IMG/VR virus record: IMGVR_UViG_3300005882_000022
Coordinates: 1 to 24,224 of that record
Reading direction: 5' to 3' (one strand)
Length of the DNA stretch: 24,224 nucleotides
From: a virus
The notes under the pieces were generated by a model. That model was given only the letters and a program-made list of their open reading frames with translations. It ran no database searches and was not told the DNA's origin. This document shows, piece after piece, positions 4,662-24,224 of this stretch; within the stretch, counting starts at the first letter, position 1, and every line of letters begins with the position of its first letter. A program made the translations under genes and the position numbers.

Positions 4662-7600
4662 CTACCTCGCTTCGTCAAGCTCCATAGGCCGGTCTAGGAA
4701 CCGGGAGCGTTTAAGTTCTGTCGGCCTGTCAGTCTTGGCCGCGCCTATCACGTTTCTCGTTCCTTCGTCGATGGTCTGCCGCCTCATGGCGTTCTTGAAT
4801 GCTTCCGAGGAAATGCTGAAACGATCCTCTCCAAACTCATTTCTCGCCGCCTCAAGCTCTGCCGCAAGAAACTCCTGCGCCCCACGGCTGTCACCAGCGA
4901 GAGTCCTTTCGACAAACCCATCAGCAATCTTCGCCTCCGCTTCTGCCATGCGCTTGTTTTCGTAGTTGCGAATCCTGCGAAGGTCTGACAGCTTTGCTTC
5001 TTCGAGCGGCCTGAGTCCGGCAGCGGTGATGATTGCATCCCGCGTCATGGCTGTATACTTCTTGGCGTTGCGACGATACCTGTCAGGCACATGCCCCTCG
5101 TCGGCCAGCATTTCGATGGCATAAGTGAGGTTGCCGATAGATGGGATAATGTTTTTCACCACCTGTTCCCACTCTCCCCGGCTGACCGACTCCCTGGTGC
5201 TAAGAATGGTACTGATCGTGGGGCCGAGCCAATCCTTTGCCCTCTGCGGCATGACATCGGACATCCCTGTACGCCTTGAAATGTCGAATCCAAGCTGGCT
5301 CATAAGCCCGTAAAGGACTGTCTCTGCCACCCAATCAGGCATTTCACCTTCCGCTGCCTTGTCAACGAAGAACCGGCGTGTCTCGGTGATCGGATTTCTG
5401 CCAGTGAAGTATTCGATGATCGAGGCAAGCCATTCGGCCATCGGGATTCCGGCCAACCCCGACAGCAGCAGGGTAGGAGTCCAGAATTTCATGACCTCTG
5501 ATGGGTTCTTGTAATCAATGTGGTGGTAGATGAATGACATCTGCTTGATGGCGAACGGCTTGAATTGTCCAAGAAGCCTACCGGCAGGGTTCTGGAAGAT
5601 ACGCCCGGCGTCTGCCGCCGAATAGTTGTGCTGTGTCAGATCAACCATCATGCGGGCGAAATCAAGGGCTTGCCGCTCGCCATAACCAAGGTCTTGTTTG
5701 GCCCAACGGTATGCTGATAGGGCGGCGATGTTGCGGTTCATGTTCTCGCCCTTGGAAAACGGGTACATGCTGGCGCTGGCAAGGCGACCGGCCCGGTGGG
5801 TCATTGAGTGACCGCCCATATCGGCCATGCCAAGGTCAAACTCGACACCGATCCGCTGCAACAGCCTCTTATGCTTCGGGTTGAGCTTGGCTCCGGCCTT
5901 CGACACCCTGACAGCCCATGCGTAATGCTTGACAGGCACCTTGGCGAAGGTGTTGATGTTCTGTGTCAGGTTAATCATGCCGCTGGCGAGGTTGAGAAAG
6001 CCGAGTTTTGTCACGCCGGTAAAGTGCAGCAACTTGTTGACCGCCCAAATGCCGGGCCTCTCAGTCTTGACAAAGTTTTTGACAAACGGAAGATTCTGAA
6101 TGCTGCGGTTTATCCACTTTTCAAACTCATGCGGTTTGCCAAGCAGCGTGTCAACGTAGTTCTTGACGTATTTCGCCTTCGGATCGCTTGCATTGTTCGG
6201 GTCGGCGTCAAAGGCGATCTTGAAGTCCTTTTCAAACCTGGGGATCGCCTTCGCCTTGAAGTCATCGAGAATGACATACCGGGCGGCAGAGTTGTAATAG
6301 GCCATGAGAATCTTGCCGAGATCGTCTTTCCTGAACCCTTGCGCTCCGGTTCTCTCCTGAGCGTTGCCGAAGAAGCGGCGACGGTTCGTGCGCCTTGCCC
6401 CGGCCCTGACAACCTCCCTGGCTTCCTCGCGTGACAAGGCACCGATGTTTGCCATCTTGTTTTCAAGCTGCCACAGTGATTCTTCCCTGAGCGCAGTCTT
6501 GGCAAGCAACGCCTCCGGTGCCGCAAACGTCTTGGGCTTTATGACATACCGCTTGTTTGGATCGAGGTTCCTGACATAACGCTCTGCATCACGCAAGCTG
6601 CGAGAATCGCCGCTGACAAGGGTGAACGACTCGTTGCCCTCGGCGTCCGTGTCAACCTCGTAGACGAACCAGTTTTCAAACAGGTGGGGGATGTGGCCCT
6701 CGCGGTAGCCAAGCCCTTGCTTGCCTTCCTCGCGCTGGCTTTCCGGCATATACTTCTTGCGGTGCGCGTTGACCAGCCTCCATACTTGCTTGTGCAGCTT
6801 GCGCTGTGCAACGTAGGCGTCGGCAACAGCCGGGTCGATACCATCCTCAATCAATTCTTCGCGGGTGAATGTCTGCTCAAGGGCGTCACCCTGCCACAGG
6901 ACAGTGAAAAGCTGCTCTCTCTGCTGCGCGTTGAGGGGCTTGAGGATGTCTGTCAGCTTTTGACGGAACAGGCCGCGAAGCCTGTCCTGCTTGTGCAGCG
7001 CATCGACACCGATCTGGACGTAATACCTGATCTTGCCGCCGATCCTTGACGGTGAACTCAGGGTATTCTGGATCAACCCCAACCCTTCTTCACGGTCGTC
7101 ACGAATCTCGACATTTTCAGGCGTCTTGCCGCCTGTCACCTTCTCAACCAGGGCGTTGATGCCCTTCTGAATGTAGCTGGTTCCGAGAAAGTCAAGCTCG
7201 ATGGTGGGAACAGGATCGCTGTCAGGCTCAGTGACAACACCGGCAGCGTCATCCTTTAATGTGGCAACAACCCCTCTGACAGCCATTGCTTCGCGCCCCA
7301 TACCACGCTCTGCCAGACCGTCACGCAGGGTTTTGGCGGCAGAGTCAATGTCTTTGCCGCCTTCCATCAGGCGCTTGAGTCCTGTCAGGATGTTTGCCCT
7401 GATCTTGCCATCGTCGGTGCGGGTGGATGTTCTGCTGATCTGAGCGTCGATATGATCGACGGTGACAGGCGGTTCTTCTTCGACGCGGCGAAGATTGTCT
7501 GCACCTGTCTTGATGTCACGCGGGTCGGTAACGCCCTCGTTCTTCCTGGGGCGTCCACGCTTGCGCTTCGGCGGTACTTTGTCGTTCAGGACAGCGGTGA

Positions 7601-10487
7601 CGGAACGCTCAACCTCTTTGTCGGTCGGCGCTTCATCTTCAAGAAGGGAAGTCTGACGCGCATCTTCGGCGTCGATCTGCGGCTGTGAGACAAGCGGCAA
7701 ATCTTCGGTACGCACGTTCGCGCCTTCTGTTCTTGCGCGGCGTCCGAACGTGGGAGGGGTGGCGAACATTTTTACCTGCTCGCCAGCTTCGGTCTGCTCT
7801 GTCAGCGGCCCTTGTTCTTGTTGCGGAGCCGCAGCGCGACTCTCGCCCACGTTTTCGACACCGCCTCTATCACTTGCTGTCTCTCGTCTGGTGGTAGGCT
7901 GCTGAGTTTGTCCAAGGTAGCCTTTGATAGCTTCGGTGGCGACTTGGTAGAATTGTTCATCGGTTAGCCCCATATCCTCCGCTTCGATGGCAATACGCTC
8001 AAGGAAATCGGCATCGACCTGTGAGGCCAGTTCCTCATAGACCGCACGATTCTGGTCGCTAAGCTCGTTGTAGCCATCTTCTGCGAGTTCAGAGTCATCG
8101 AAAGCAAAAAGTTCATCAACATTTTCGTCGGTAATCGGGATTCCGTCAACATCTTCCTGGGGATCAGGCATAGGAATCTCGTCATCCCACACCGCCTGTT
8201 CTGACATGACAGGTTCGCCACGGATGGCAGAGTCAACCGCTTCAAACAGACTGTTGATGGTGTAGTTTCCGTCAGCGTCCGGTTGCAGATAGCCGTACTG
8301 CCGCAGGGATTGCACCATGTCATCGAGCTTGCGCCCGTTCTTGCGGCGAAGCACCGGCTTGCCGAACACTTGGCGTTTTTTCAACTCCTTGCTTGCGTCG
8401 GTGATTGTCTTGCCCCATTCGTGCTGGACTTGTGCCATGTCCAGACCGCCAAGTTTCGAGATCGCCTTGAGAATGTCGTCCTTCTCAGGGTCAACCTTGT
8501 TGCGCTCTCGCCGCAGACGTTCATCGTTTCTGCGCTGCGCCTCAGACCTGACAGCCCCACGCTGCGCCTCTGCCATGCGACCGACCTGCTGTGCTTCGTC
8601 GGCCTTGACACGCGCAGCCGTTGCCACGTTGCCGGTTTCTGCCGCCCGTCTGACAGCATCCGGCCCGGCAGCAACCTGACCGTCCTTGGTTATGGCAACG
8701 TCAATGTCGCCCTGCTCAGGGGTGGTGGCCTTGGAATTGAAAAGGATGTCACCGATCTCGCCGATCTTTGCCTTCTCTCTGACAGCCCTGTCGGTGTCGG
8801 TCTTTTTGGTGGTGCCAAGAATGCCGGAAACGGTGTCGTGGTGGTAGATGACGTACTGGTCTTGATCCGGCACCTTGACCATGCGGAAGCCGTCGCCCTG
8901 ATTGATCTTTCCGGGCTTGAATCCGGTGTCTGCAACGGCATTTTTCGTCGTGATGACAGCGGGCTTGGCCTGTGGGTCTTGCCGCATCATGTTGGCTTCA
9001 TCACTGACACGGTTGTCAGACGCGGCAACCTCTGAATGGTCTATGATTCCTTCAACAACAGGCTGGCGGAAAGGGCTGGCCGGTATCTCGTCGCCGTAGT
9101 CAATCAGGCCAAGCCTCTGCTCTCTGGCCTTCTGACGTTCTGCTTCGGTGGCATTGTCGGCCCACGCACGTTCATAGTCAGACAACTCGCCAGAAACGAT
9201 CTCGTCAATAGCCCCTTCTTGAGACTGCCGCTGCCGGGCAATATATTCTTCGCGCATCTGATCCGCTTCTGCGCGGATAGCATCACGATCTGACGCCTCT
9301 TTTGGTACTCGGCCTTTTTTCTTTGCGGCCTTGCGTTCCTCTCTCGCAAGGTCACGCGCCACCTTGTCACGGATATACTGGTCGGCCTGTTCCTGGGTGG
9401 GAGACACCGCTGCCGCCATCGGGCCACCTGTGATTGCTCCGACGCCGAACTCTGTCGCCCGTTCCTCCATTGTCCTGTCGTAAGGAATGCCGCTCTGCCG
9501 CTTGGCACCGGCAGCAAGCTCACCTTGCAGCAATTCCTGAGAGCCTTCTGCCAGCGCACCGCCGGCACCGCGCTTGGCAAGAGATTTCAGGTCTTTGCCC
9601 GGCATGTTGCGGAAGAAGGCGAGTTTGTCAGTGACGAAGTTGAGGGGGAGATTGAGCCAGAAGGTTTTTGTAGCAGCTCTCTCTGCGGCATCACGGCTCT
9701 TTGTCTGCGTCAGCGTGTCACGGTAGACATGACCGGCCTCGACAAGCGCCTCCTGTGTCGCCATCGTTCCGGCACCTGACAGTTTGGCAAGGCTGTTCGT
9801 GAGCGACCCGACCTTGCCGATTCCACTCATGACGCGACCGATGGCTATACCCGGAATCAGGAAGGTTCCTAGAGAGCCAAACCCCTCGGCGACAGCATTG
9901 ATGAATCCGGGTTCTTCTGCCCGGTTGCTTTCGATCCTCTGCCTGATCTTGTTGGCAGCGCCGGAACCATAGGCACCATCTGTCAGCCAGTTGACGGACT
10001 GCATGATGCCTTCGGCCATCGTCAGCGCACCGGACTCGACATCGCGGCCAAACTGAGCGATTGTTTCATCGACGTTGTTCGGATTTACTGACAGCTTGTA
10101 ATCGGTGACAGGACGGCTTGATACTGGAAGCCCTTGCTCGCGCAGTTGCTGCTGTCTCTGCCGGGCCTCAAGCTCGATCTGAGCCTTGGCCCTGTCACGC
10201 GCAATACGATCTTCTTCGGAAGGGGTGAAGGGCGAGGTTACGAAATCTGTCAGCTTTTCGAGCGGCCCCTTCTCAGGTTCCTCGAACGCACGAAGCTCAG
10301 GCACCTGACGTTCATTGCGGCCCATAAACTCGTCAAGCTGCGGCACCATGACATCGTTTCGCAGGGCGGTCGAGGTTTTCTGCTCAAGGAATCCGGCGAT
10401 CTTTTCTTCCGGTATGCCTTGCTGCTTGGCAATCTCGATCTGCTTGCGAAAGCGCGGGTATCTTTGATGAAGCGGGATATTCGCCAC
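4662..10487 (-). CDS. Giant internal virion / DNA-ejection protein (1941 residues)
   Basis: The largest gene in the window, nearly a quarter of it. The N-terminal 400 residues include a hydrophobic, glycine-rich stretch near residues 200-225 and an EGSQELLQGEL block of a type common in very large phage internal proteins. Residues 370-1000 are charged, low-complexity and probably coiled coil, with an AT-hook-like KRKRGRPRK near residue 975. The C-terminal half (1090-1941) looks folded and contains hydrophobic helices near 1495-1515 and 1665-1695 plus a PAGRLLGQFKPF motif. Proteins of this kind in podoviruses sit inside the capsid and enter the cell with the DNA, making an envelope conduit. I see no lysozyme, protease or polymerase motif. 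The start is GTG with GGGAG seven bases upstream, two bases after the previous stop. Confidence 0.82.
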   Translation of the reverse strand: MANIPLHQRYPRFRKQIEIAKQQGIPEEKIAGFLEQKTSTALRNDVMVPQLDEFMGRNERQVPELRAFEEPEKGPLEKLTDFVTSPFTPSEEDRIARDRAKAQIELEARQRQQQLREQGLPVSSRPVTDYKLSVNPNNVDETIAQFGRDVESGALTMAEGIMQSVNWLTDGAYGSGAANKIRQRIESNRAEEPGFINAVAEGFGSLGTFLIPGIAIGRVMSGIGKVGSLTNSLAKLSGAGTMATQEALVEAGHVYRDTLTQTKSRDAAERAATKTFWLNLPLNFVTDKLAFFRNMPGKDLKSLAKRGAGGALAEGSQELLQGELAAGAKRQSGIPYDRTMEERATEFGVGAITGGPMAAAVSPTQEQADQYIRDKVARDLAREERKAAKKKGRVPKEASDRDAIRAEADQMREEYIARQRQSQEGAIDEIVSGELSDYERAWADNATEAERQKAREQRLGLIDYGDEIPASPFRQPVVEGIIDHSEVAASDNRVSDEANMMRQDPQAKPAVITTKNAVADTGFKPGKINQGDGFRMVKVPDQDQYVIYHHDTVSGILGTTKKTDTDRAVREKAKIGEIGDILFNSKATTPEQGDIDVAITKDGQVAAGPDAVRRAAETGNVATAARVKADEAQQVGRMAEAQRGAVRSEAQRRNDERLRRERNKVDPEKDDILKAISKLGGLDMAQVQHEWGKTITDASKELKKRQVFGKPVLRRKNGRKLDDMVQSLRQYGYLQPDADGNYTINSLFEAVDSAIRGEPVMSEQAVWDDEIPMPDPQEDVDGIPITDENVDELFAFDDSELAEDGYNELSDQNRAVYEELASQVDADFLERIAIEAEDMGLTDEQFYQVATEAIKGYLGQTQQPTTRRETASDRGGVENVGESRAAAPQQEQGPLTEQTEAGEQVKMFATPPTFGRRARTEGANVRTEDLPLVSQPQIDAEDARQTSLLEDEAPTDKEVERSVTAVLNDKVPPKRKRGRPRKNEGVTDPRDIKTGADNLRRVEEEPPVTVDHIDAQISRTSTRTDDGKIRANILTGLKRLMEGGKDIDSAAKTLRDGLAERGMGREAMAVRGVVATLKDDAAGVVTEPDSDPVPTIELDFLGTSYIQKGINALVEKVTGGKTPENVEIRDDREEGLGLIQNTLSSPSRIGGKIRYYVQIGVDALHKQDRLRGLFRQKLTDILKPLNAQQREQLFTVLWQGDALEQTFTREELIEDGIDPAVADAYVAQRKLHKQVWRLVNAHRKKYMPESQREEGKQGLGYREGHIPHLFENWFVYEVDTDAEGNESFTLVSGDSRSLRDAERYVRNLDPNKRYVIKPKTFAAPEALLAKTALREESLWQLENKMANIGALSREEAREVVRAGARRTNRRRFFGNAQERTGAQGFRKDDLGKILMAYYNSAARYVILDDFKAKAIPRFEKDFKIAFDADPNNASDPKAKYVKNYVDTLLGKPHEFEKWINRSIQNLPFVKNFVKTERPGIWAVNKLLHFTGVTKLGFLNLASGMINLTQNINTFAKVPVKHYAWAVRVSKAGAKLNPKHKRLLQRIGVEFDLGMADMGGHSMTHRAGRLASASMYPFSKGENMNRNIAALSAYRWAKQDLGYGERQALDFARMMVDLTQHNYSAADAGRIFQNPAGRLLGQFKPFAIKQMSFIYHHIDYKNPSEVMKFWTPTLLLSGLAGIPMAEWLASIIEYFTGRNPITETRRFFVDKAAEGEMPDWVAETVLYGLMSQLGFDISRRTGMSDVMPQRAKDWLGPTISTILSTRESVSRGEWEQVVKNIIPSIGNLTYAIEMLADEGHVPDRYRRNAKKYTAMTRDAIITAAGLRPLEEAKLSDLRRIRNYENKRMAEAEAKIADGFVERTLAGDSRGAQEFLAAELEAARNEFGEDRFSISSEAFKNAMRRQTIDEGTRNVIGAAKTDRPTELKRSRFLDRPMELDEAR

Positions 10488-17052: not shown

Positions 17053-17652
17053 TCAACCTCTAAGGTACTTGCTGTGCTTGGGCTTTGGTTTCAAGCGGTT
17101 ATCCCAGGACTTGAGCCTGTACATTTCGGCCCTGTCAAGCCCTTGCGACAGGGCTGTTCGCTCGTCCATGTCGTACTCGTAGCAGAAATCAAGGCACGAC
17201 CTCATAAGAATCGGCCTGAAGCGCGCCGGAAAGACAGTTGTCTGACCTTCCGAATAGACCGGAACGTCTATCAGGTACTTGATGTCAACACTTCCCGTCG
17301 CCCCAGGCACGAACACGATGCTGTCAGGCGTGACAACAAACCCGGCAGGGAAGTTGTCGTTGATCCCGCCAATGCTATTCGCTTCCTCGTCTGTCAGATG
17401 GTGCTTCTGGCGTGTCAGAAAGAAGTTGTCGCCAGCAATGGTCAGGACGGCAGCGCAGTCATCAGGCAGCGAAGCCTTGTTGTCCGACACAGAGATACTG
17501 TCTGCCGTCTTTTGCAGGACGATCCAGTCTCGCTCAGCGGCAAGCTGCTGGATCGAAATGTTCAGCCACTTCAGGATTTTGCTGCGAAACTCCTGAGAGT
17601 CGTCCTGAACGACAGAGGTTACGTCATCAAGGATGTCATTCACCTGAAGCAT
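17053..17652 (-). CDS. Head-tail adaptor (connector) protein
   Basis: 199 residues. The N-terminal helices (DILDDV, then EFRSKILKWLNISIQQLAAERDW) and the following beta region (SLPDDCAAVLTI, FVVTPDSIVFVPGA) match the usual layout of podovirus adaptor proteins. In those, a helical bundle binds the portal and a small beta region contacts the tail. The C-terminal part is helical, acidic then basic. It follows the capsid block, overlaps the zinc-finger gene by 17 bp and precedes the hub-like protein, the expected order. The role is known for the family (P22 gp4 / phage adaptor type), while assignment here rests on layout and context. Confidence 0.72.
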   Translation of the reverse strand: MLQVNDILDDVTSVVQDDSQEFRSKILKWLNISIQQLAAERDWIVLQKTADSISVSDNKASLPDDCAAVLTIAGDNFFLTRQKHHLTDEEANSIGGINDNFPAGFVVTPDSIVFVPGATGSVDIKYLIDVPVYSEGQTTVFPARFRPILMRSCLDFCYEYDMDERTALSQGLDRAEMYRLKSWDNRLKPKPKHSKYLRG

Positions 17653-17815
17653 GTTTGAACCTCATGTGCGATGTCAGCCCTGCCTTGCTCTTGGCTTCCG
17701 AGCCGCAGATAGGACAAACAAGATCGTCGCCAGCAGACAAAAGGGGAGGCCGCTTGACCTCCCCCTTGCTGGCGTCAGCGTTCTGTCGCCTGTGCCACGT
17801 TACACAAAGAGCCAT
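17636..17815 (-). CDS. Small C2H2 zinc-finger protein
   Basis: A 59-residue frame between the capsid-associated protein and the adaptor. The C-terminal half is a textbook C2H2 finger: C34-P-I-C37, twelve residues, H50, four residues, H55 (CX2CX12HX4H). The finger helix contains K-S-K-A-G-L-T-S-H. The first 30 residues are basic and unstructured. Such a finger binds zinc and usually nucleic acid or a protein partner. The ATG at 17813-17815 begins one base after the upstream stop; its ribosome binding site is weak (GCGGGA), so it may be translated by coupling. It overlaps the adaptor start by 17 bp. Its role could be DNA-end or portal binding, or late regulation; neither is shown. Confidence 0.75.
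   Translation of the reverse strand: MALCVTWHRRQNADASKGEVKRPPLLSAGDDLVCPICGSEAKSKAGLTSHMRFKHASGE
17728..17774 (-). terminator. Nested hairpin inside the zinc-finger gene (possible attenuator/terminator)
   Basis: Outer arms CGCCAGCA (17728-17735) and TGCTGGCG (17767-17774) enclose an inner stem GGGGAGG (17743-17749) with CCTCCCC (17758-17764) around an 8-base loop. On the minus strand the inner stem is followed by TTTTG. This could end part of the capsid transcripts, but the T-run is short and the outer arms would compete with it. It lies within codons 14-30 of the zinc-finger gene, so expression of that gene may depend on it. Confidence 0.5.
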
Positions 17816-17816
17816 A

Positions 17817-18128
17817 TTACGATCCCGCTACAAACAGAAACTTCCATCCGTTCTCGCTCGCAGCGTCGAGGGGAGAGGCGGTCGGGTTGACGAGAAAAAC
17901 CTTGACGGTTCCGTCTCCTGTGACGCGCCCACCGCCGACAAAAAGACCTGCCTCAAGCGACGGCTTGATTACACCGATACACTCCATGTCGCTCGTCACG
18001 CCTGAGATTGAAAGCTCGGTTTCCGCGACGTCGTTTGCGGCAACGGAGGGCAGGTCAACAGCATCTACGGTGAACTGACTGATCTTGCTGAACTGAGAAA
18101 AATCCTTCTTGTCTGAAACAGTAGCCAT
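17817..18128 (-). CDS. Small head-associated protein, possible capsid decoration protein
   Basis: 103 residues, compact and beta-rich, with GLFVGGGRVTGDGTVKVFLVN followed in sequence by a short hydrophobic C-terminus; no signal peptide or membrane segment. A small beta protein encoded directly behind the major capsid gene is often a decoration (capsid-stabilising) protein, so this is the best guess. The ATG at 18128 has GGAG six bases upstream. A frame start at 18149 would lie inside the post-capsid hairpin and is less likely. Confidence 0.62.
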   Translation of the reverse strand: MATVSDKKDFSQFSKISQFTVDAVDLPSVAANDVAETELSISGVTSDMECIGVIKPSLEAGLFVGGGRVTGDGTVKVFLVNPTASPLDAASENGWKFLFVAGS

Positions 18129-18145
18129 ATCGTTCTCCATTGAGG

Positions 18146-18175
18146 ACAAGCGGGTCGCGCAAGCAACCCGCTTGT
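18146..18175 (-). promoter_or_regulatory. Perfect 10-bp stem-loop between capsid and downstream genes
   Basis: ACAAGCGGGT (18146-18155) and ACCCGCTTGT (18166-18175) form a perfect 10-bp stem with a 10-base loop, between the capsid stop and the next ribosome binding site. No T-run follows on the minus strand, so it is better read as an RNA 3'-end stabiliser, processing site or leaky terminator that lets capsid mRNA exceed downstream mRNA. Confidence 0.6.
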
Positions 18176-18182
18176 TTGGTTA

Positions 18183-19154
18183 TCAGTTGGTGATAAGAGC
18201 CACGGCACCGATAAACTTGTCATCCTCGGCAATCTTCTGCCAGTTTGTCGGGGTGGCGAGGGCGGCGTTGGAGGGGTTGGTGTCGGTGACATTCCACTTC
18301 ACCAGCTTCAGGTGAGGAACGAAGTGCATGGAAGTGGCCAGAACGTCCTGCAACGCCAGAATGTCACGGTCGTTCTCAGTCATGATCTCCTTCTGCATCC
18401 CGTAATACATGCAGCCCTTCTTCATCAGGTAGCTGGTGTAAAGGGGATAATCGGCAACGCCGTTATCAACCGGGAGGTTGTCGGTTACGATGATGTCCAG
18501 CCCCATAAACTGGCCCTTGCCGCGCAGATTGGTGTTCTTCGGGTCGTAGGTGTAGGGGAAGCTCACCATGTTCGCGTTGATGGCGTCGGCGTACTGCTTG
18601 GAGTGCATGACGATACAGTCAAATTCCTCCATCATGTCGCCAAGCAGCGCAGCGGCGTTGACAACGTGATTGTGCGCCATCTGAACCTTGTCGCCAGTGG
18701 TGACGCCAACCTTCAAGCGGTGAGTGTCCTTCAAAGGCCCGGAAGTCGGGTCGAAAGCGGCGTTGAGGACGGAAATAAGGTGGTTCTTGCTCATTTTCCC
18801 CCAATATGAGGAAACCTGCTTGGCGATCTCCTTCATAGGATCGTCGCCGGACAGGATTTTGGCGAGGTCGCGGCTGGCCCATGCCCGGCCACGGTGACAC
18901 ACGACGCCGATGTCCTTCCGGGTCGAGATTTTACCGGGGGTCATGCTGGTGTCGTCAGTCAGAACCTCGTCATCGCCGGTCAACTGGTCGTAGAAGGGGA
19001 TTTCTGCGAAGTGACCACCTTCACGAATATCGACATTCTCGTAATCCTTGGTTGCAATGCCAAGTTTAACGAAGTCGATGTAGGGCGAAATCATGGCCGA
19101 TACCATGTCGGTCAAGACTTCGGGAACGATAATGTCAGCAATTTTCGTTGCCAT
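18183..19154 (-). CDS. Major capsid protein (HK97-fold)
   Basis: 323 residues, the normal length for a podovirus capsid protein without an N-terminal delta domain. The pattern matches a widespread phage capsid group. It starts with an N-terminal arm (IADIIVPEVLTDMV), then a strand with EIPFYDQLTGDDEVL, then DIGVVCHRGRAWASRDL and a spine helix with DPMKEIAKQVSSYW. Later come a GDKVQMAHNHVVNAA helix and a FDCIVMHSKQYADAI segment. About 400 or more copies would form the shell around the scaffold. AAGGAG lies upstream of the ATG. The gene follows the scaffold gene by 46 bp and is followed by a strong stem-loop, both usual for a highly expressed capsid gene. It lacks the CTGTCA word common elsewhere. 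Confidence 0.88.
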   Translation of the reverse strand: MATKIADIIVPEVLTDMVSAMISPYIDFVKLGIATKDYENVDIREGGHFAEIPFYDQLTGDDEVLTDDTSMTPGKISTRKDIGVVCHRGRAWASRDLAKILSGDDPMKEIAKQVSSYWGKMSKNHLISVLNAAFDPTSGPLKDTHRLKVGVTTGDKVQMAHNHVVNAAALLGDMMEEFDCIVMHSKQYADAINANMVSFPYTYDPKNTNLRGKGQFMGLDIIVTDNLPVDNGVADYPLYTSYLMKKGCMYYGMQKEIMTENDRDILALQDVLATSMHFVPHLKLVKWNVTDTNPSNAALATPTNWQKIAEDDKFIGAVALITN

Positions 19155-20313: not shown

Positions 20314-20607
20314 CTATTTGCGCCGAAGCATGTCTGACAGCCATCGCTTGAAGCTCCATGTCCAGCTTCTAGGTGGCCTCTGTTCGTTCATAATGGCTTC
20401 GATCATGCGCGGCAACTCTGACACGATAAACCAGCGCGAAATCTGAATGCGTCGCACTCTGTCAGGATCGTCTGCCTTGTCGTATTCACGCAGCATCCCC
20501 TTGGCTGCAACCCGCAGTTTTCGGGCCACAAGCCGCGTTCCTGGATGCTTTAGCCAATTTTCGATAAGCTCCTTCTGCTCTACGGTATCGAGGTCGTCAA
20601 TATCCAC
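20314..20607 (-). CDS. Small protein of unknown function between portal and scaffold (GTG start)
   Basis: 97 residues, all-helical in appearance and strongly charged, with a basic, Trp-containing C-terminus (RSWTWSFKRWL). The acidic N-terminus is followed by an Arg/Lys-rich middle. The start is GTG at 20605-20607, supported by GGGAGG five bases upstream. It overlaps the portal gene end by 11 bp. No family recognised. Its position suggests a portal- or packaging-associated helper, but nothing in the sequence proves this. Confidence 0.65.
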   Translation of the reverse strand: MDIDDLDTVEQKELIENWLKHPGTRLVARKLRVAAKGMLREYDKADDPDRVRRIQISRWFIVSELPRMIEAIMNEQRPPRSWTWSFKRWLSDMLRRK

Positions 20608-22660
20608 CTTGTCCTCCCGGTTCTACGCCACCGGCTGAATCCATCGGGTCAGGGGGCATGTCGCCCGGATCAGCGCCCATGTCAGCCGATTGCTGGTTCT
20701 GTCTATCGTCGCGCCCCTGTGCGTTGACGGTAATGTTCCCGCCTTCGAGCATACCTTTGACGATCATCTGCTGAACCTCTGGCGGCAGAAGGTGAAGGTC
20801 GATATTGACATTGCCGCTGATGTCAGGCTTGGGCGGGGCAGGGGGTTGTGCAAGGTCGAACGCCTGTGGGTCAAACCCGGCAAGGATATTCAACTGGCGG
20901 GCGACCTTCTGCATATCAGTGGGAATACCCATCTGCTGACGCACCTGGGCGATCTGCAAGATAAGCTGAGCCTTCTTGTCTTTCGCCATCGCACCCCGAC
21001 CGGCGTTGACGTTGACTTCGACTTCAAGGTCGATCTGTGACAGGTCAACGGCCATCTGACCGCCAACCACCGTCTGCGGCACTTCGACGCCCCGGCGCTT
21101 ACCGGCAACGCGGATCAGGGTTTCGTCCGTTTCGTAGGCCAGTTCAAGCTGTGCGATCAGATACAGAAGATGCTCGAAGAAGGTCTGATTGCGGGTGATA
21201 AGCTGCACTGACAGCTTTTCGTCCTGATGGCCCATTGCAAGCTGGATGGCACCAAGGGTGCGCCCTGAGCCACGCGGGACAACGTGCCGGTTCTCCATAC
21301 CGACAGACGCAAGTTCAGCCAGGTCTTGACCAAGGCTGTCAGCAACCCGCATCGTGTCGATCATGTTCAACTGCTGGTCGATCTTCTCGACCTCACCAGT
21401 ATCAGCCAGGAACATGCGGCCATTAAGCAGGTCGTCAAAATCAACGTCGCTGTTCGGGCTGACACGCCAGCGCCCCTGGATGGACAGTTTGGCGGCATCT
21501 GACAGGTTGTTGCGGTGATCGGCCAATTCATCCTCAATCGGCGCGATTGTCTCTGGATCGCCGCGACCGACTGCCTCCCACAGCTTCATCTTGTGGGTTC
21601 CCATGACAATAGGAAGCCTGTCAACCTGTCTGCCACCGAAGAAAACGTCGTTGACAGGCTTTTTGCCTGACAGCTCAACCTCACCTTCGAGGCTAAATGA
21701 CACCATCCACTGACTTTCCACCTTGTCGAAGAATATCCACACTTCGGCGCGGTTGAGGTCGTCTGCGTCAACAGCTTCGGTGTCGCCGGTTGTCGCTCCA
21801 TGATCGATGTTTTCGGTCTTGGCGCGAAGATACCGAGCCGCTTCTTCCTCCTTGAACTTGTCCAGCAAGCCCTGCTTCTTCATCTGGCGAAGCTGATCGA
21901 GGCTTCTTCTGGCTTTGACAAGGCACCGCTCGCCCATGCTGATGTCAAGCAGCGGAGCTTTGAAATCCCACAGCAAGTCCTCACCGGGCTTGAGGCTGTC
22001 GATCCACCATGAATCGGTCGTGACGACTTCTTCCTCGAAGTCCTCTTTGAACACTTCGCCCGGCAGATCGCTTATATCTTTAAGCTGGCGGTAGAGTTCT
22101 TCGTCAATTTCCTCGACGGGAGGAACGGCCGGTGGAACAGGCTGTCCTGTCATGGGATCAATCTGCGGTGGGGGAGGGGCCGGTCGATAGAAATAGCGGC
22201 TGACCTTCTTCTTGTAGCCTTCCTTGCGCCAGTAGACCATCGCAGCTTCAAGGCCATCGGTGAAGCCATTGGTAAGGCTGGAAACGTGCCATGTGAAGAA
22301 GGGGAAGGTGTGCTTGGAGCGGTACTGGAAAAGCTCTGTCAGAAGTTGAGCCATCATTTCCTTGTCAGGCTCAAGCGTTCCGTTCTTCGCGGTAAAGGTA
22401 ATCGCGTCAGGATCACCGTGATACTCCATGACTGCCCGGCCAACCGCCCTGTCAACCACTGAGGTTGACTTCGTGGAAGGAATTGTTGACAGGCCGCGCT
22501 TTTCGCGTTCCTCCTTGTCTTTCAACTCCATTCGGTAGCGGCGTCGATTGTCCTCGATAATCGACTCAAGACCTTGCCGGAACCACGAATTGAAGTGTTC
22601 CTCGAAGTCCTGTTGAGCGGCAAGGTCGCTGCTTCTGTCCTTCGTTCCTCTTTTCGCCAT
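20597..22660 (-). CDS. Portal protein
   Basis: 687 residues, typical for podovirus portals. The N-terminal third has the helical clip entry (FEEHFNSWFRQGLESI) and a TSTVVDRAVGRAV-like segment (here TSVVDRAVGRAV). The middle has a DSWWIDSLKPGEDLLWDF strand region and RLPIVMGTHKMKLWEAVGRGDPETIAPIEDELADHRN, a pattern common in portals before the stem helix. The stem and crown follow (QLNMIDTMRVADSLGQDLAELASVGMENR). The C-terminus is Pro/Gln/Gly-rich and disordered. Twelve copies form the DNA channel at one capsid vertex and dock the terminase. AAAGGAG lies seven bases before the ATG, after a terminator-like hairpin in the gap to the terminase gene. Confidence 0.85.
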   Translation of the reverse strand: MAKRGTKDRSSDLAAQQDFEEHFNSWFRQGLESIIEDNRRRYRMELKDKEEREKRGLSTIPSTKSTSVVDRAVGRAVMEYHGDPDAITFTAKNGTLEPDKEMMAQLLTELFQYRSKHTFPFFTWHVSSLTNGFTDGLEAAMVYWRKEGYKKKVSRYFYRPAPPPPQIDPMTGQPVPPAVPPVEEIDEELYRQLKDISDLPGEVFKEDFEEEVVTTDSWWIDSLKPGEDLLWDFKAPLLDISMGERCLVKARRSLDQLRQMKKQGLLDKFKEEEAARYLRAKTENIDHGATTGDTEAVDADDLNRAEVWIFFDKVESQWMVSFSLEGEVELSGKKPVNDVFFGGRQVDRLPIVMGTHKMKLWEAVGRGDPETIAPIEDELADHRNNLSDAAKLSIQGRWRVSPNSDVDFDDLLNGRMFLADTGEVEKIDQQLNMIDTMRVADSLGQDLAELASVGMENRHVVPRGSGRTLGAIQLAMGHQDEKLSVQLITRNQTFFEHLLYLIAQLELAYETDETLIRVAGKRRGVEVPQTVVGGQMAVDLSQIDLEVEVNVNAGRGAMAKDKKAQLILQIAQVRQQMGIPTDMQKVARQLNILAGFDPQAFDLAQPPAPPKPDISGNVNIDLHLLPPEVQQMIVKGMLEGGNITVNAQGRDDRQNQQSADMGADPGDMPPDPMDSAGGVEPGGQGGY

Positions 22661-22846: not shown

Positions 22847-24224
22847 TCAGCGAAGAAATACTCCCTTCAATCTCACCTTGTTTCTCTTTGTCTTTCGCTT
22901 TCTCAACTGATTTTCGCCCAAATAGAAGGTCAAAGCGACTGCATCTGCGCTGTCAGGCGATTCAAGGCCGCGCTTTCGCATGTCTTTCTTCGACTCGATC
23001 CGCATTTTGCCGTCTGAGGTCGGAAAATACTTGATAACCGCCAGTTGGTCGATCAATTCGCGGTCGTCCGGTATCGAAATCGTCCCATCCTCGAACCTCT
23101 CGCGCAGCTTCCAATACATTTCGTCACGTTTGTTGCTGAAATGAGCCTCGTCGGTTGGCTTCTTTCTGACATCGCCGGAATAAACCTGGTACCCCATTTC
23201 CTTCAGGCGGCAGAAAACGCCATGTCCTATGCCAATCGGGTCAACAATCGCGCATTTGGCCTCTATTTCGTCCATTTCTATCGACACCCAACCCACAAGC
23301 TCCATCGTATCCTTGGTATTCTTGCGGGTAATGTTAACAATCTGCGGCCCCCTTCTCTGCGCCATGACAGACTTGTCACCACCGGCACCAACATCAACGC
23401 CCAAAACGTCCTGGTCGTCCTCTGAAGGCTCAATATCTCTGTTGACAGCCGCGTCGATCCACTCCCACGGAATCAGGGTGTCGGTATCGCTGATCGGCGG
23501 CAGACCTTTGACGCGAATCCGAAACGGCATCGAATCTCTGCCGTATTTCCGCGCCATGCCTTCGATATGGCTCCTGGAAACAATCTCTGACTTCTCGGCA
23601 TCCCAATGCAGCGCAACGAACCGGGAATCCTTCTGGCTCTCAACCGCAAAACCTGTCCGTTTCGTCGGGTTGAAGATAATCAGGACGAGGTTTATCAGAC
23701 CTGTCAGAGTACCCTCAACCGGCTTGAACACCGCATCATTGATTCCACTGGCTTCGTCAAAGATAAACAGCATGTGCCGCTCATGACGACCGGCCATTGC
23801 CGTTCCCTGATCCTCCGGGCTGGATGTCGATGACACGGTGATCGCCTCGCAAAACCACCGCTTACCCTTTTCCTCCTTCCCCAACTGCTTGTTGAACACC
23901 TTTTCGGTCTGAACCTCGAACATTTCCTGCAAAATCGTCGGGCTGGATGGATTCTTGTCGTCCACCTTCTTCGCCATGCCCATCACTTTGCTGATCTCAG
24001 ACCAGTAGACGTTCATCAACTGCTTGTTCGTATTCGCTGTCGCTGAACACTTCGGGTACGAAAAGCATGTCATAAACCATGTCAGGCACAACGCAGCGAA
24101 GAAATCCTTGCCCGTTCCCTGGCCAGACATGATGCTGACACCGATCTTCTCCGCATACTCACGTTCTTCGTCGGTGAGCTTCTTCCCGGCATGGGAATCG
24201 AGTTTGGCACCAACAATCTTCCCA
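22847..24224 (-). CDS. terL: Terminase large subunit (5' end beyond window)
   Basis: The frame is open to the right edge, so about 458 residues are visible and the start is outside; the internal ATG at 24130 is not the start. The ATPase motifs are present: SGQGTGKD (Walker A, visible residues 33-40, with Asp where Ser/Thr is usual), ATANTNKQL after it, and LFIFDEASG (Walker B plus catalytic Glu, near 156). The nuclease part shows GVDVGAGGDKS near 275 and DSADAVAL near the C-terminus, which supply the acidic residues of the RNase H-like fold. TerL pumps DNA into the prohead and cuts the concatemer. It is the first gene seen in the late operon, as expected for a packaging-head order, and the small terminase should lie just off the window. 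Confidence 0.92.
   Translation of the reverse strand, partial: GKIVGAKLDSHAGKKLTDEEREYAEKIGVSIMSGQGTGKDFFAALCLTWFMTCFSYPKCSATANTNKQLMNVYWSEISKVMGMAKKVDDKNPSSPTILQEMFEVQTEKVFNKQLGKEEKGKRWFCEAITVSSTSSPEDQGTAMAGRHERHMLFIFDEASGINDAVFKPVEGTLTGLINLVLIIFNPTKRTGFAVESQKDSRFVALHWDAEKSEIVSRSHIEGMARKYGRDSMPFRIRVKGLPPISDTDTLIPWEWIDAAVNRDIEPSEDDQDVLGVDVGAGGDKSVMAQRRGPQIVNITRKNTKDTMELVGWVSIEMDEIEAKCAIVDPIGIGHGVFCRLKEMGYQVYSGDVRKKPTDEAHFSNKRDEMYWKLRERFEDGTISIPDDRELIDQLAVIKYFPTSDGKMRIESKKDMRKRGLESPDSADAVALTFYLGENQLRKRKTKRNKVRLKGVFLR

Follow-up and report, generated by a model that had tools for sequence, protein, structure and literature searches.

Organization of the locus

The window analysed here is a viral record of 24,224 bases from IMG/VR, and its head module lies on the minus strand (Table 1). 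Between the gene of a small decoration-like protein and that of an SU10-type adaptor, a position that we refer to as the slot, there is a frame whose translation is MALCVTWHRRQNADASKGEVKRPPLLSAGDDLVCPICGSEAKSKAGLTSHMRFKHASGE. The first-pass annotation had described a 59-residue product with a CX2CX12HX4H finger, giving no strand; the frame is found on the minus strand, and the ligands are C34, C37, H50 and H55 (CX2C-X12-H-X4-H). The tight packing that it had noted was also recovered, since a single base separates the ATG from the stop codon of the 110-aa upstream gene (TAA-T-ATG) and the TGA falls 17 bases into the adaptor gene, which starts with the ATG at 17652. The slot protein has a net charge of +3 and only three Cys residues.

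Table 1. Features of the head module in the window (strand and basis as available)
Feature	Position	Strand	Basis
Terminase-like	22847-24130	-	
SU10-type portal	20597-22660	-	PF23899, 32.6 bits (cut-off 30)
329-aa gene	between portal and capsid genes	-	
Major capsid protein, Gp13-like	18183-19154	-	phrog_247, PF20036
Small capsid-associated/decoration-like protein, 110 aa from TTG	17817-18149	-	
59-aa C2H2 slot protein	17636-17815	-	translation; syntenic finger ORFs in L003, L007 and L036; AlphaFold beta-beta-alpha
N-terminal anchor-like stretch MALCVTWHRRQN, residues 1-12 (predicted helix 3-15)	17780-17815	-	
Predicted zinc finger, C34 to H55, CX2C-X12-H-X4-H	17651-17716	-	translation; Pfam scores; AlphaFold; structure search
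GAGG inside the finger ORF, likely ribosome-binding site of the adaptor gene	17660-17663	-	judged from the sequence
SU10-type adaptor, next downstream, 17-base overlap with the slot ORF	17053-17652	-	PF24175, 33.9 bits (cut-off 27)

The decoration-like protein gave no family match, and small genes are found at the syntenic position in the four relatives described below. An ATG near 18128, with GGAG just 5' of it (18128-18149), is a likelier start for this gene than the listed TTG.

The slot frame as a coding gene

The slot ORF is almost certainly a real gene of the head-tail block, as had been proposed, and the presence of a finger at the matching locus in relatives bears this out. The strict finger motif occurs in one among the 219 ORFs of at least 40 aa in the window, for an expectation of 0.07 per window in 150 order-3 Markov simulations of the window, and its composition-based probability in a 59-mer is about 1e-6. 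A scan of 25 phage stretches, namely six of this lineage (one a duplicate) and 19 known phages, rendered the strict C2H2 motif in 3 of 618 ATG ORFs of 40-150 aa, all three being slot ORFs (window, L003 and L036). Counts of changes at codon positions 1/2/3 in aligned blocks were 14/17/26, 9/9/23 and 11/10/20, an excess at third positions of the kind that selection on a coding frame would leave; because the slot proteins share only 34-36% identity and their third positions have reached saturation, these counts do not translate into a dN/dS estimate. The alternative of a non-functional open frame bridging two genes by chance would agree with a codon bias near zero (0.05 bits/codon vs 0.16-0.50 in other window genes) and with Pfam scores under cut-off, but it is hardly credible, because conservation already contradicts it (three divergent relatives carry a finger ORF in synteny, with differences mostly at third positions), as does the low chance rate in both the simulation and the 618-ORF scan. 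Despite its low value, the codon bias of the slot frame is the best of the six frames, which argues weakly in its favour.

Predicted fold of the slot protein

The ligands of the window protein fall within the classical C2H2 pattern CX2-4C-X12-HX3-5H, which is kept in L003 and L036. Structure prediction, proposed in the first-pass annotation as a check, gave with AlphaFold (three sequences) a helix at residues 3-15 and then a beta-beta-alpha unit with a finger pLDDT of about 80, and the corresponding model for L036 (four sequences) consists of a helix at residues 4-18 and a beta-beta-alpha finger with a pLDDT of 93-95. Matches of the slot-protein models in Foldseek and VIA searches were almost all C2H2 fingers, with scores that are weak (E of at least 0.1, Z of at most 3.2) because the models are so short; over all Foldseek searches, BFVD included, no E fell under 0.07. 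In Pfam, the window protein stays under all curated cut-offs (best 21.1 vs 28; zf-C2H2 18.4 vs 25.2), and the finger of L036 exceeds two of them (zf-C2H2_jaz 28.5 vs 22.6; zf-met 22.4 vs 21.2). The core aromatic residue four positions past the second Cys is absent from the window protein (A41), is a Phe in L036, and appears as a shifted Phe in L003 and L007. On the basis of these models, a zinc-finger fold in the window protein is very probable, and the protein can be considered a putative zinc binder.

As to its class, the window protein differs from two groups of zinc-finger regulators. Ros/MucR zinc fingers act in transcription, and their zinc-binding domain is longer and flanked by basic stretches, whereas the window protein has 59 aa in all, one short finger and a low net charge. 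The P2 Ogr/Delta late activators carry a four-cysteine zinc motif, in contrast to the three Cys and the C2H2 ligands found here. BFVD matches in archaeal viruses and in uncultured tailed phages are likewise small viral proteins with a single C2H2 finger, but they are not known to be linked to a head-module slot. Small CxxC proteins of haloviruses have been described outside packaging and assembly modules (PMC7230728).

The slot in related viruses

A search of IMG/VR with the capsid protein rendered four relatives, L003, L007, L035 and L036, whose capsid proteins are 61%, 62%, 62% and 52% identical to that of the window, respectively; the lineage sample comprises five slot sequences, all of them metagenomic. 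The gene order capsid, decoration, finger ORF, adaptor is common to the window, L003, L007 and L036, so that a small ORF with a zinc finger fills the slot in three of the four relatives. The proteins of L003 (MGFPISWQQRRNQGAAPVAPDLSCPHCGFVGKNAKSLNCHIAKKHPG, with ligand spacing equal to that of the window) and L036 (MGLAGFERARRR...PWCAFCDRTFQNARAYDIHMKGKHPK) bear the exact C2H2 pattern, and that of L007 (MGFPLTWQRRDQ...KCACGFVAKNAAGLAAHKRKTRCP) bears the variant CX1C-X12-H-X5-C. On the other hand, the slot protein of L035 (MALCLSWSRDAAKRE...) has 112 aa and a charged tail, without finger. Homologues at the same locus are thus found, but part of what the first-pass annotation had named as refuting evidence is seen as well: L035 has the frame without the finger, and the four Cys/His residues, kept in L003 and L036, are replaced in L007 by a CX1C pair, a His and a final Cys.

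What the slot proteins of the window and L035 have in common is the N-terminal stretch, MALCVTW in the former and MALCLSW in the latter (MALC-x-[ST]-W), in an identical slot; the broader pattern M-[AG]-[LF]-x-x-[ST]-W is found in the window, L003, L007 and L035. Capsid identity places L035 no farther from the window than L003 and L007, so that the finger is replaceable within the lineage.

In L003, an extra ORF of up to 109 aa (ca. 6407-6736) with no family assignment, absent from the window, lies between the finger gene and the adaptor, indicating that the slot accepts inserts. L036 has two tandem SU10-type adaptor genes in overlapping frames (5580-6248 and 6220-6840; PF24175 50.7 and 59.9, cut-off 27).

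A tblastn search of 50,697 phage records with the finger proteins of the window, L003, L007 and L036 gave no significant match. A Xanthomonas CP2 match lies among recombination/replication genes and was judged to be due to chance, and Staphylococcus GIY-YIG matches were weak, with an E of 0.08 at best. When viral and genome contigs were scanned with degenerate patterns for the N-terminal motif and the finger, no members were detected besides L003 and L007, and a survey of sampled Clostridia, Alpha- and Gammaproteobacteria with the capsid profile or PF20036 rendered few capsid matches, with no slot finger among those examined. The same survey rendered one slot protein with a Phe-containing (F-type) N-terminus (L151).

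Slot proteins of other phages

In phages with related capsids, the slot is occupied by small proteins with an aromatic/Arg N-terminus. These include the slot proteins of Terrisporobacter phage TVCOM_ph1 (MSVTGFNRRRR followed by Rho_N, 38.4 bits, cut-off 24.9), Pasteurella phage Pmp13 (MGLAAFNRMRR followed by HeH, 30.7 bits, cut-off 28.9), Acinetobacter phage Ab105-3phi (MGLSSFNRARE followed by HeH, 36.4 bits, cut-off 28.9; this protein corresponds to phrog_1772, annotated as of unknown function) and a Clostridia prophage (MSLSAFQRMRR followed by a charged tail). Unannotated ORFs were also found in the slot of two cyanophages, MED4-184 (L148, 4406-4543; 45 aa, starting with MAMYAFRRMRE) and KBS-S-2A (L149, 4409-4582; 57 aa, starting with MGLFAFRRLRE), between a decoration-like gene and the head-tail adaptor, and their start, M-x-x-x-AF-RR-x-RE, resembles that of the HeH slot proteins. 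In a Vibrio phage whose portal is related, a 150-aa protein directly precedes the adaptor, and its C-terminal part gives a weak match to DUF7440/phrog_916. In Vibrio phage 1.232.O, an HNH gene separates the capsid from the adaptor. In SU10 no gene is annotated in the slot, which suggests that the slot gene is dispensable in some SU10-type phages.

The proteins of Pmp13, Ab105-3phi and TVCOM_ph1 occupy the same slot as that of the window, and their N-terminus (M-[GS]-[LV]-x-x-F-N-R-x-R) is close to that of L036, but they carry HeH or Rho_N where the window lineage has the finger. The start of the L036 protein is identical to that of Pmp13 (MGLAAFNRMRRL) at 8 of 12 positions and to that of Ab105-3phi at as many, a level reached by one of 15,513 background ORF starts. 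The W-type N-terminus of the window protein matches the F-type ones at 3 of 12 positions, within chance, and its tie to the HeH slot proteins is therefore drawn from position, gene size and kinship with L036. A Pfam search gave no HeH/LEM, Rho_N or Packaging_FI match for the window protein, so that it may work like these families without being filed as a member of any of them.

Two of the systems have been studied in more depth. Lambda FI, annotated as a DNA packaging chaperone, lies between E and FII, and its product gpFI (PF14000, phrog_92; PDB 2lsm for the C-terminal domain) has been placed on the gpE lattice of the prohead, with a proposed action through non-specific DNA binding (PMC4856287). 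It matches the window protein in slot and in consisting of more than one part, but it has 132 aa, no zinc ligands and no sequence match to it. The second is ORF37 (MCP3) of phage TP901-1, located between the major head protein and HTC1, nonsense mutants of which produce full phage particles with a reduced plating efficiency, and which Popovic et al. likened to gpFI (PMC4493119). ORF37 is of similar size (65 aa), overlaps tightly with both neighbours and, as in the window protein, has a basic N-terminus and then a C-terminal mini-domain; this mini-domain, however, is HeH (34.5 bits) and not a zinc finger, and the connector is that of a siphophage, not an SU10-type adaptor. HeH/LEM between capsid and connector is also listed in a Streptococcus agalactiae phage table (PMC10221047).

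Small slot proteins and C2H2 fingers in phages are both already known. A C2H2 finger in the post-capsid slot was not found in the literature searched or in the 19 known-phage stretches scanned. The rarity in the virion-assembly block that the first-pass annotation had mentioned applies therefore to the finger, and not to a small nucleic-acid-binding-like protein in the slot, as the HeH/LEM, Rho_N and gpFI examples indicate.

Possible role of the finger protein

The slot ORF lies, between capsid/decoration and adaptor, where lambda encodes gpFI and many siphophages encode HeH/LEM or Rho_N proteins, and because the slot holds proteins of these types elsewhere, the finger protein can be read as a post-capsid accessory with an anchor-like N-terminus and a C2H2 finger in the place of HeH. 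We give about an even chance to its having a gpFI-like role in packaging or head completion. The amphipathic N-terminal stretch, with its aromatic residue and Arg, would dock on the capsid or on the portal vertex, the C-terminal mini-domain would contact DNA or terminase without sequence specificity, and genome packaging or head completion would be aided quantitatively, the protein not being an essential part. Synteny, the tail swap in L035, the HeH and Rho_N slot proteins, the start of L036 and the function of the lambda and TP901-1 slot proteins speak for this reading, in which zinc binding, like the docking, the contacts and the packaging role, is inferred; the distant N-terminus of the window protein, its lack of HeH or Packaging_FI matches and the case of SU10 count against it. 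Moreover, a common slot need not mean a common function, since Gp13-type and lambda-type capsids differ. The gpFI-like reading fits the context better than the options advanced in the first-pass annotation (binding to the DNA end, the portal-adaptor joint or regulation).

A more tentative proposal, which we hold to be somewhat less probable than not, is that the slot encodes one widespread modular type of protein across tailed phages, made up of a short aromatic/arginine capsid anchor and interchangeable DNA-binding mini-domains (HeH, Rho_N, C2H2 finger or basic tail), and that the finger was recruited independently in this SU10-type lineage as a substitute packaging module.

Alternatively, the finger could hold proteins together, as a clamp, where capsid, portal and adaptor meet, which would make it a minor neck piece in which zinc only stabilises a small fold. 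The slot ORF adjoins and overlaps the adaptor gene, the domain is exchangeable for a charged tail in L035, and the helix residues S43, A45, G46 and S49 are small and would suit protein contact better than sequence reading; yet the joint can dispense with such a piece in SU10, and TP901-1 forms particles without its slot protein, so that we regard a clamp as rather unlikely.

A role in regulating late genes or host transcription, as a small protein present in the head module by happenstance and comparable to Ogr/Delta or Ros/MucR, is less probable still. DNA binding is frequent among C2H2 fingers, and DNA-binding fingers are among the top structural matches, but this is a single finger of low net charge, without the long basic flank typical of single-finger DNA binders, in a gene whose position implies expression in the middle of the head operon and which L035 keeps while losing the finger. 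According to standard C2H2 numbering, the same small residues occupy the base-reading helix positions, which are also small in L007, and sequence-specific DNA reading would thus be disfavoured. Regulation of late genes, which had been suggested for this protein, is therefore poorly supported, and sequence-specific regulation is unlikely. Finally, the inserts in L003 and in Vibrio phage 1.232.O would agree with a tolerant gap that houses an effector or a counter-defence protein expressed late, but this reading is quite improbable, as a short protein type with a common N-terminus and slot across distant phages is unlike typical variable cargo.

Most phage annotations pass over the small genes that lie between capsid and connector or call them hypothetical, and the slot ORFs of the two well-known cyanophages have no annotation at all. 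If the slot proteins form a family of packaging helpers that are anchored on the capsid and have interchangeable mini-domains, the natural replacement of HeH by a C2H2 finger would directly probe the role of the mini-domain, addressing whether any small DNA-binding fold suffices or each fold is matched to its own terminase or capsid.

Other features of the window

Two further minus-strand features were observed in the window. An ORF of 1941 aa (4662-10487), with 0 Pfam/PHROG matches, likely encodes a giant virion or ejection protein, and a transglycosylase SLT domain (769-1260; 36.9 bits vs cut-off 21.3) points to a probable virion or lysis enzyme.
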